Shown in pieces: positions 4,605 through 6,777 of a DNA stretch of 43,191 bases. Numbering within the stretch: the first letter of the stretch is position 1; the number at the start of each line of letters is the position of its first letter. Both the position numbers and the translations under genes were made by a program. The DNA comes from an uncultured Chloroflexota bacterium (lineage in GTDB: Bacteria; Chloroflexota; Anaerolineae; Promineifilales; Promineifilaceae): contig CAADGU010000444.1 in NCBI GenBank assembly GCA_900696625.1, positions 1-43,191 of the forward strand, read 5' to 3'. Under the pieces are notes generated by a model. The model was given only the letters and a program-made list of their open reading frames with translations, had not been told where the DNA came from and did no database searches.

Positions 4605-5249
4605 TTATCGTGTGCCCATCCCAAATTGTAAGATGTGAATGGTCTGATTGAAGAGATCGGCGGCGGGCGAGTCAAAGAAGGAACGGCCGTCTGCCAACCG
4701 ATCAGCCGCATTCTCTTCCACCCGGCTTAGCAGGTAGCCGCCCAACTCGGTAATGATGGTATGGAAGATAAACGCCGCCAACTCTTCGTCTATTTGGGCG
4801 TCAATGCTGCCCTGTGTTTTGCCCTGCGCTACCAGTTGCGCAAAAAATGTGTAGGCGCTGGCTCTGGCCTGCTGCATCAATTCGGACGGCACATCGCCGC
4901 TCTTCACCGCCCGGTAGCCAATCTGGCTGAGTTGTGGGTGTGCCAGTTCAAACTGGACGCCTGTCTGGGCCAGCCAGGCTAGATAAGCAAAAATATCCAT
5001 ATCTGCTTCGGGCGGTGGCGTTGCCAGGAATTGAGCCTTTTGCTGCGCGCCTAGCTCTAGCAGGTAGCGGTAGAGTTCGGCTTTGTCGGCAAAGTATTGG
5101 TAAAAGCTGCCTTTGGCGATGCCGGCCTGGGCCACAATCCGTGAAATGGAGGCGTTTGCGTAATCATGGCTGGCGAATTCTGCCAGGGCTATTTCCAGAA
5201 AGTGCTGCCGTTTTTCTTCGGGCAGGTTGAAAAAGGTTTCTTTAGGCAT
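4605..5249 (-). CDS. TetR/AcrR family transcriptional regulator
   Basis: The protein has 214 residues. The N-terminal helix-turn-helix region (about residues 10-57) reads FLEIALAEFASHDYANASIS, then RIVAQAGIAKGSFYQYFADK, the standard TetR DNA-binding signature. The remaining roughly 150 residues form the variable ligand-binding domain. It is the first gene of a two-gene operon with the GT1 glycosyltransferase, and a near-perfect 34-bp palindrome sits 17-51 bp upstream of its start, so autoregulation is likely. By family knowledge it acts as a dimeric repressor released by a small molecule. The ligand is unknown. Confidence 0.9.
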   Translation of the reverse strand: MPKETFFNLPEEKRQHFLEIALAEFASHDYANASISRIVAQAGIAKGSFYQYFADKAELYRYLLELGAQQKAQFLATPPPEADMDIFAYLAWLAQTGVQFELAHPQLSQIGYRAVKSGDVPSELMQQARASAYTFFAQLVAQGKTQGSIDAQIDEELAAFIFHTIITELGGYLLSRVEENAADRLADGRSFFDSPAADLFNQTIHILQFGMGTR

Positions 5250-5266: not shown

Positions 5267-5300
5267 TGTGACCGGCCAGTCATATGACCGACCGGTCACA
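5267..5300. promoter_or_regulatory. Double TetR operator
   Basis: A 34-bp inverted repeat with two mismatched pairs contains two 14-bp sites, TGACCGGCCAGTCA (5269-5282) and TGACCGACCGGTCA (5285-5298), with centres 16 bp apart. This suits two TetR dimers binding side by side on the promoter of the TetR-glycosyltransferase operon. Confidence 0.75.
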
Positions 5301-5361
5301 TTCTACATGATCAGAAATTAGTTTGTCAAGGGTGTAACATTACTGGTTCAATTTTGCCTAC

Positions 5362-5389
5362 TTGCACGGCCGTTAAAATGCGGTATCAT
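5362..5389 (+). promoter_or_regulatory. Promoter of the orphan RNA
   Basis: TTGCAC (5362-5367), a 16-bp spacer and TATCAT (5384-5389) predict transcription from about 5396. An ACGGCCGT palindrome overlaps the end of the -35 box and the spacer. Confidence 0.5.
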
Positions 5390-5395
5390 AGATGT

Positions 5396-5578
5396 ATTCT
5401 TATCCAATCAACAACACAAGGAAAATATGCGATGGGAAACCATCGTCACCTCCCCTAAAACTGGCACAAAAGAAACGCGACTGGAACAACTGGTTGGATA
5501 AGAAGAGGGTAGCGACACCCCCTCCTTGTGTTGGTCAAAGCCCGGAACGGCCGTCTTCACAGACGGTCGTTTTTTTTG
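5396..5578 (+). ncRNA. Candidate orphan structured RNA, about 180 nt, unknown family
   Basis: The region runs from a promoter to a strong intrinsic terminator. A perfect 10-bp closing helix, CAACACAAGG (5412-5421) with CCTTGTGTTG (5524-5533), encloses about 100 nt. Inside are a hairpin with a GNRA tetraloop, CGATGG-GAAA-CCATCG (5430-5445), and a second hairpin around GAGGGT-AGCGAC-ACCCCCTC just before the closing strand. The 93-codon frame over the same bases (5392-5673) has no Shine-Dalgarno, runs through the terminator stem and its T-run and resembles no family, so it is considered a shadow. The next gene has its own promoter at 5627-5655, so this is probably a free-standing RNA and not a leader, although a long-leader riboswitch cannot be ruled out. 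It does not match the 6S, SRP, tmRNA, RNase P or common riboswitch consensus by eye. Confidence 0.55.
5547..5577 (+). terminator. Intrinsic terminator of the orphan RNA
   Basis: ACGGCCGTCT (5547-5556), loop TCAC and AGACGGTCGT (5561-5570) form a 10-bp stem with one G-U pair, followed by eight consecutive T. The left arm contains the ACGGCCGT palindrome. Confidence 0.85.
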
Positions 5579-5626
5579 TGCCGAGATTAGGGGCTGATGC
5601 CTGCGTACCAGAGCGCCTGTACTCGT

Positions 5627-5680
5627 TTGTTACCCGCTGCGAAGAGTGTTATGATTTGTTGATATTTACCTGATCAGGTA
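5627..5680 (+). promoter_or_regulatory. Promoter plus 14-bp palindromic operator for the LysM/SH3 gene
   Basis: TTGTTA (5627-5632), 17 bp and TATGAT (5650-5655) predict a start near 5662. TACCTGATCAGGTA (5667-5680), a perfect palindrome, lies just downstream of that start and covers the weak Shine-Dalgarno before the ATG at 5689. That is the position expected of a repressor site. Confidence 0.5.
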
Positions 5681-5688
5681 CGTGAGCC

Positions 5689-6777
5689 ATGATGATCGTA
5701 GACCAACTGGTAGTACAGCACCAAACACTGCGCAATAAAGCCGCTGAAGCGCCGGAGGCGGTAGGCATGAATGAAGTCATGGCGCTGATGGATCAGGTGC
5801 GGGCAGCCAGCGCCCACGTAGAAAACCCCCACCAACGTGAACAACTGCAAGCCATTTTGTTCCACTGGAACGGCTATGTACACAGCCAGACCGGCGCTTA
5901 CCCCGGCATCCAATTGGCCGCTTTTTCACCACCGGCTGCTGCTCCCAGCCCGGAACGCACGGCGCGCGTCACCACCGCCGCTCCCCCTGAGCTAACCCTG
6001 CCGCGTGTGCATTGGTTGGTTTGGGTGGCGGCGGCGGTGCTGTTTGTGGGTGGGGCCATCATCGTGATCTGGCCGCTTTTATTTGGCAATGAGGGGGCCG
6101 TGGTGGCGGCGCCCACCTTGCAAGCGGAGGCGGTCTACACGGCCGTTGCCGCCACCCAAACGACCATTGCTTATGAAGCTACCGTCACCCGCGCCGTTAT
6201 TGAACAAACGGCCAATGCTGCGGCGCTGTTGTTTGCCACCGCCACCAGCAGCGAAACGGCCGTTAGCGAGACGCCGCCCACCGGCCCGGTCGTGTATACC
6301 GTTCAGGCCGGGGACACGCTGTTTACCATTGCCCGGCGTTATGGGCTGACGTTGGACGAAATTATGATCCTGAACGGTCTGACGACAGATGCTCTGGCAG
6401 TCGGCCAGACATTGACGTTGCCTCATCCACCACTGACGCCAGAGGGGGACACGGCCGTGAATAACACGGCCGTAAATAACACGGCCGTCACTGCACCACC
6501 ACCCCCCGCCGCCACACTCGCCCCCGGCCAACAACTGGCGGAGATGGTTATTCGCGCACCCTCGGCCAGCCTGTACAGCGGCCCCGGCGCCCAATTTAGC
6601 ATCATCATGCCGCTGGCGCGGGGCACCTTTGCCTATGCTGTTGGCCGCAGCCAGGCCGGGGACTGGTATTTGCTGCAATTGGAAGATGGTGTCACTCGTG
6701 GCTGGTTGCCCGCTACCGATGTGGCCTTGCTTTACCCGGCTGTGCCCGACATCATCCCCGTCATTGTGGTGCCATGA
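5689..6777 (+). CDS. Membrane-anchored LysM and SH3-like domain protein
   Basis: The protein has 362 residues. Residues 1-107 are cytoplasmic, with a helical N-terminus and a Pro/Ala-rich linker. One membrane segment follows (VHWLVWVAAAVLFVGGAIIV, about 108-134). The outer part has an Ala/Thr-rich stalk, a LysM domain (VVYTVQAGDTLFTIARRYGL to TLTLP, about 203-246) expected to bind peptidoglycan N-acetylglucosamine, a linker with a triple TAVNN repeat, and a C-terminal bacterial SH3 domain (ASLYSGPGAQFSIIMPLARG, then GDWYLLQLEDGVTRGWLPA). No catalytic domain is present, so it probably acts as a cell-wall receptor or anchor. The ATG at 5689 is followed directly by a second in-frame ATG and either may be used. 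Its stop overlaps the start of the next gene (ATGA at 6774-6777), implying translational coupling. Confidence 0.85.
   Translation: MMIVDQLVVQHQTLRNKAAEAPEAVGMNEVMALMDQVRAASAHVENPHQREQLQAILFHWNGYVHSQTGAYPGIQLAAFSPPAAAPSPERTARVTTAAPPELTLPRVHWLVWVAAAVLFVGGAIIVIWPLLFGNEGAVVAAPTLQAEAVYTAVAATQTTIAYEATVTRAVIEQTANAAALLFATATSSETAVSETPPTGPVVYTVQAGDTLFTIARRYGLTLDEIMILNGLTTDALAVGQTLTLPHPPLTPEGDTAVNNTAVNNTAVTAPPPPAATLAPGQQLAEMVIRAPSASLYSGPGAQFSIIMPLARGTFAYAVGRSQAGDWYLLQLEDGVTRGWLPATDVALLYPAVPDIIPVIVVP
6451..6488 (+). repeat. Tandem 15-bp repeat carrying three ACGGCCGT palindromes
   Basis: ACGGCCGT occurs at 6451, 6466 and 6481, separated by GAATAAC and AAATAAC, giving an exact 15-bp period. In frame it encodes TAVNNTAVNNTAV in the linker of the LysM/SH3 protein. 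Confidence 0.9.

Follow-up and report, generated by a model that had tools for sequence, protein, structure and literature searches.

Does the stretch that precedes a LysM gene on a contig of an uncultured Chloroflexota bacterium (CAADGU010000444.1) encode an RNA and, if so, of what kind? In the window (the whole stretch analysed, 43,191 nt), a first-pass annotation had proposed a regulatory or housekeeping RNA of about 180 nt at this point, flanked by a promoter and an eight-T terminator and containing a 10-bp helix, a GNRA-capped hairpin and a second hairpin. All of these elements are present in the letters. The proposal itself is supported, with its fold revised to a pseudoknot and its scale to that of a family-wide RNA that is present in multiple copies and carries an invariant core. 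We conclude that 5397–5578 is a free-standing structured RNA of approximately 180 nt, belonging to a family that is almost certainly real. Folding of the RNA strand beats all of 200 dinucleotide shuffles (z = −3.5).

Fold of the window copy

The window copy is divided into the following parts:

5362–5389, + strand: promoter, −35 TTGCAC (5362–5367), 16-nt spacer, −10 TATCAT (5384–5389) ending 7 nt before P1; from the letters and the −10 spacing across copies
5397–5410, + strand: P1 5′ arm TTCTTATCCAATCA, probable 5′ end of the transcript; pairs with 5491–5504
5412–5422, + strand: P2 5′ arm CAACACAAGGA, within the P1 loop; pairs with 5523–5533, with an arm-swap control
5429–5446, + strand: P1a hairpin GCGATGG-GAAA-CCATCGT, only in the subtype of the window's genus; stem covaries
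5447–5456, + strand: C-rich single-stranded tract CACCTCCCCT, complementary to Shine–Dalgarno sequences; C/U-rich in all copies, length variable
5458–5487, + strand: invariant core AAACTGGCACAAAAGAAACGCGACTGGAAC; pattern search with three mismatches allowed
5491–5504, + strand: P1 3′ arm TGGTTGGATAAGAA; pairs with 5397–5410
5507–5516, + strand: P3 5′ arm GGGTAGCGAC; pairs with 5534–5543 around an AGC/AAA internal loop
5515–5525, + strand: C-rich tract of the P3 loop ACACCCCCTCC; C/U-rich in all main-scaffold copies
5523–5533, + strand: P2 3′ arm TCCTTGTGTTG, within the P3 loop, forming the P1-loop/P3-loop pseudoknot; arm-swap control
5534–5543, + strand: P3 3′ arm GTCAAAGCCC; pairs with 5507–5516, with covariation
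5544–5578, + strand: intrinsic terminator GGAACGGCCGTCT-TCAC-AGACGGTCGTTTTTTTTG, stem 5544–5573 followed by eight T; terminator search, with comparable ones at other copies

P1, a perfect 14-bp helix (5397–5410/5491–5504), was missed in the first-pass annotation, which had taken 5412–5421/5524–5533 for a perfect 10-bp closing helix. That complementarity is real, in fact 11 bp long (P2, 5412–5422/5523–5533), but it does not close the structure. P1 crosses P2, so the fold is a pseudoknot and a multiloop held by a closing helix is ruled out. The second hairpin also exists and is P3 (5507–5516/5534–5543), which encloses the 3′ arm of P2 in its loop. The predicted fold thus consists of two stem-loops, P1 and P3, whose loops are paired by P2. 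A hairpin CGATGG-GAAA-CCATCG is found at 5430–5445, as described, but its GNRA cap is not conserved: the loop changes freely.

Covariation of the helices

Compensatory variation among homologues, which the first-pass annotation had suggested testing in its closing helix, is abundant: all 19 modelled P1 and P3 pairs have changes on both sides. Across 96 distinct sequences, 87.9% of the P1 and P3 cells are paired; shuffles give 64.0%, and sliding gives at most 46%. Since the alignment had been fitted to these two helices, the pairing figure is tilted towards them, but the slid controls lie far lower. Taken singly, P1 has 89.9% of cells paired (10/10 modelled pairs changed on both sides) and P3 85.7% (double changes at 9/9).

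P2 lies outside the covariance model and was judged by comparing own with swapped arms among 53 non-redundant copies. Own arms are strictly best in 24 of these and within the top 5% in 35 (2.7 expected). One subtype has a P2 of 10–13 bp that changes freely; in another it is a short, near-constant GAGG/CCUC, which gives no evidence for or against. The P1a stem covaries (GCGATGT/ACATCGC, CCGCG/CCGC and GGCGCTG/CAGCGC, among others) around an unconserved loop, and the hairpin is absent in other genera. A triple helix between the C tract and P2 was considered and rejected: by eye, the C tract does not track changes in P2.

Transcription unit and genomic setting

In 22 of 54 non-redundant copies, a match of at least five in six to TATAAT ends exactly 7 nt upstream of P1, where the upstream control sequence predicts 0.14 per position; in 33 of 54 it ends 6–9 nt upstream. 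This spacing makes P1 very probably the transcript's 5′ end. Terminators comparable to that of the window copy are present at 65 of 95 copies (130-nt scan). The LysM gene has a promoter-like site of its own (TTGTTA-17-TATGAT, 5627–5655), in keeping with what had been read from the letters.

Beyond the terminator, 51 of 96 copies have a downstream gene on their own strand and 45 have one on the opposite strand; the flanking genes come from unrelated families, without a constant transposase or nuclease neighbour. Because orientation is random and the flanks unrelated, the gene is free-standing and predicted to act in trans. Groups of copies share flanking genes between genomes, and such syntenic sites across genera (for example, 14 loci downstream of an NYN-domain-like gene, five with GlgB and five with UbiA) indicate vertical inheritance. 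In the most widespread orthologous group (loci L087, L109, L118, L123, L124, L129 and others), a UvrD-like helicase gene and the NYN-domain gene precede the RNA on the same strand, at 14 loci; the latter gene, named from its sequence alone, resembles NYN-domain (YacP/Rae1-like) nucleases.

Several features adjoin the window copy. A near-perfect inverted repeat, TGTGACCGGCCAGTCATATGACCGACCGGTCACA (5268–5301), lies between a TetR-type gene (4605–5249, − strand; Pfam TetR_N) and its promoter, TTGACA-18-TAGAAT, and is likely to be a TetR autoregulatory operator. The LysM protein carries a short tandem repeat, AVNNTAVNNTAV (6452–6490), built of the word ACGGCCGT, which is also frequent in terminators and linkers here. 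Directly 3′ of the terminator, 5571–5592 (TTTTTTGTGCCGAGATTAGGGG) is antisense to the C tract and core of the RNA itself. Three closely related genomes share this complementary stretch, at no locus but this one, and the complementarity is probably due to chance.

Distribution and copy number

About 100 further copies of the RNA were found. When 98 related genomes were searched at the nucleotide level, 72 gave a match at E ≤ 1. The strong matches all fall in the window's own taxonomic family and centre on 5449–5490, with about 90% identity between genera there and differing flanks. Searching a single genome per species for the pattern returned 99 stretches, all labelled Chloroflexota/Anaerolineae or subgroups. 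A covariance model detected the RNA in 36 of 39 genomes, representing 22 of 22 genera, from a single Anaerolineae family; this family contains Promineifilum and is very probably Promineifilaceae (name as in PMC10408702). Genomes of this family hold one to eight copies, with five or six in that of the window. One locus (L088) has two tandem copies, 180–307 and 488–613, about 180 nt apart.

Outside the family, the core pattern was absent from 365 Anaerolineae genomes and, with three mismatches allowed, from four genomes of the sister family, the order sample likewise giving none beyond the family. Class and phylum samples gave no covariance-model match under stricter filters, with which weak matches are lost, and the named phage and plasmid collections gave none. 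A phage-borne copy is present on an IMG/VR viral contig (L134, 3381–3408), between genes for a terminase large subunit and an HNH endonuclease.

The first-pass annotation saw no likeness to the common RNA families, and database searches agree. Rfam cmscan has no match in the window at or above the gathering score, known riboswitches included, and nothing credible at permissive E-values; on 15 homologous loci it identifies only a neighbouring tRNA. The literature searched contains no occurrence of the core sequence and nothing relevant on structured RNAs in this group.

An invariant core on two scaffolds

Between the C tract and the P1 3′ arm, the core AACTGGCACNANAGAAACGCGACTGGAA (28–30 nt) is near-invariant while the stems vary freely; in a pattern search of the order allowing three mismatches, most of the places found have none. 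Four loci (L039, L041, L067 and L073) use a variant scaffold, where C tract and core are kept. By eye, P1 is here GTGGCC/GGCCAC, and a covarying hairpin surrounds its 3′ arm (CTATTTGC/GCAAATAG, CTATCCGC/GGTGGATAG, CTATTTACC/GGTAGATAG). Because the two elements are retained on another scaffold, function probably resides in them. As an antisense to rRNA, the core gives best matches no better than those of a shuffled core. The simplest explanation suggested by the core is a dedicated protein partner.

Variant-scaffold copies (L067, 3814–4686, and L040, L041 and L073) have nearby genes clustering with one of P22 antirepressor/ORF6C type (Pfam on L067). These loci are possibly prophage remnants.

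Candidate functions

The RNA has two C-rich tracts, one before the core and one in the P3 loop, which match the anti-Shine–Dalgarno sequence of the host 16S rRNA (end ...GGATCACCTCCTTTTA; 3′ end GGATCACCTCC). In 24 of 53 copies (but only two of 2,880 control tiles), a hairpin with a CCCTCC (CCCUCC) loop is added 3′ of P3. The stems of these hairpins differ in sequence, and the loop sometimes belongs to the terminator itself. The window copy has UCAC as its terminator loop and no CCCUCC, leaving it with two C-rich sites rather than three. Shine–Dalgarno-like motifs precede 23% of long ORFs, against 5% of random positions, which leaves a subset of the mRNAs as possible targets. A search of eight genomes for Hfq found none, while the control genomes gave matches.

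By analogy, these features are compatible with an Hfq-independent sRNA that would block Shine–Dalgarno sites of other messages, in the manner of LhrC or sX13; we regard this as the most likely mechanism, though held somewhat short of probable. The sequence itself indicates that the RNA is transcribed from its own sigma-70-type promoter, starting at P1 and stopping at its own terminator, and that joining of the P1 and P3 loops by P2 creates a compact pseudoknotted scaffold. This scaffold leaves the first C-rich tract, the core and the second C-rich tract single-stranded, with many copies adding the CCCUCC 3′ hairpin. The C-rich tracts may then pair with Shine–Dalgarno sites of the mRNA subset, blocking translation initiation with no need of Hfq, as in LhrC and sX13. 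The core would dock a dedicated protein (or a conserved RNA) that stabilizes the RNA or brings it to its targets, and copies under different promoters could serve different expression conditions.

Known sRNAs offer partial parallels. LhrC, a multicopy sRNA of Listeria, blocks Shine–Dalgarno sites without Hfq (PMC4132741) and, like the RNA described here, is encoded by free-standing genes in multiple copies; at about 112 nt, however, it has neither the pseudoknot nor the invariant 28-nt core, and no sequence or covariance homology between the two was found. An LhrC-type set of three C/CU-rich unpaired sites would apply to the 24 of 53 copies with the 3′ loop, the window copy having only two. 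In Xanthomonas, sX13 acts through three C-rich loops on G-rich motifs near starts, independently of Hfq (PMC3771888). C-rich loops on stable stems and a presumed independence from Hfq are shared with our RNA, but sX13 is a single gene of three simple stem-loops, lacking pseudoknot and invariant core. Yfr1/Yfr10 of cyanobacteria (PMC6778093) are lineage-wide sRNAs that hold a conserved unpaired pyrimidine-rich motif in different structural settings, as seen here; both motif and fold differ, the phylum is another, and our RNA has no Rfam match. 6S RNA (RF00013) is likewise free-standing, of about 180 nt and under its own promoter, but forms a single bulged hairpin unlike the present fold. It was rejected as an identity: the four genomes tested (G000, G028, G039 and G040) have a separate 6S gene, and the window has no RF00013 match. 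We therefore rate the family as uncatalogued: it cannot be filed as LhrC or under any other catalogued family, and is of the trans-acting sRNA kind, a new family in its own right.

Shine–Dalgarno blocking needs the C tracts alone, and leaves unexplained a core whose conservation far exceeds theirs; Shine–Dalgarno sequences precede only a minority of the ORFs here, and the C-rich tracts could serve the fold or bind a protein instead. In a rival reading, the core is the docking site of a dedicated RNA-binding protein or enzyme on a non-coding RNA that acts as scaffold, sponge or RNP part, like 6S or CsrB, with the C-rich parts secondary. The constancy of the core across 22 genera amid helices that all vary, its retention on a different scaffold and its chance-level complementarity to rRNA all point this way, while the C tract kept beside it in both scaffolds and the enrichment of CCCUCC 3′ loops by hundreds of times over background do not; we entertain protein docking as a tentative possibility. 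Conserved unpaired cores within covarying pseudoknots are typical of aptamers, and the core could on these grounds sense a ligand, in a riboswitch or a riboswitch-like trans regulator whose copies end in terminators. The terminator stem overlaps neither core nor helices, and no Rfam riboswitch matches. A riboswitch continuing into the LysM gene had been named as the contrary case; across copies, the near-even split of downstream strands, the unrelated gene families and the lack of any recurrent function rule out a cis-acting riboswitch and make ligand sensing improbable overall.

The phage-borne copy next to a terminase gene, the antirepressor-like neighbours of the variant subtype and the presence of one to eight copies per genome would suit a guide or structural RNA of a mobile or phage element that spreads its copies. 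Vertical inheritance at syntenic sites and the want of a constant transposase or nuclease neighbour render this very unlikely. A leader or small-protein gene is extremely unlikely. The locus had been described as free of a credible reading frame, and no frame is conserved as a gene, although one small frame of 24 codons does exist (5427–5501), open from ATG to TAA in the window copy and preceded by AAGGA, a plausible ribosome-binding site. Its start codon is missing in L008 and most subtypes, length differences of 1–3 nt within its C tract and core disrupt it, and conservation tracks helices, not codons; with neither start codon nor frame conserved in homologues, it is ruled out as a gene.

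Implications

More speculatively, and with the odds against it as a whole, we propose a near-universal, lineage-specific RNP RNA whose core, AAACUGGCACRARAGAAACGCGACUGGAAC, would dock a dedicated protein on interchangeable pseudoknotted scaffolds in one to eight copies per genome, exerting a global post-transcriptional control in place of Hfq throughout this bacterial family and having been taken up by at least one of its phages. The finding contributes a structured RNA family, uncatalogued and unusually clear in its covariation, to a phylum for which we found hardly any described sRNAs. Detected in 22 of 22 genera of its bacterial family, this RNA combines helices that vary freely with a core that is invariant, and the contrast is extreme. 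In a lineage without detectable Hfq, finding the partner of this core would reveal how sRNA regulation works there.
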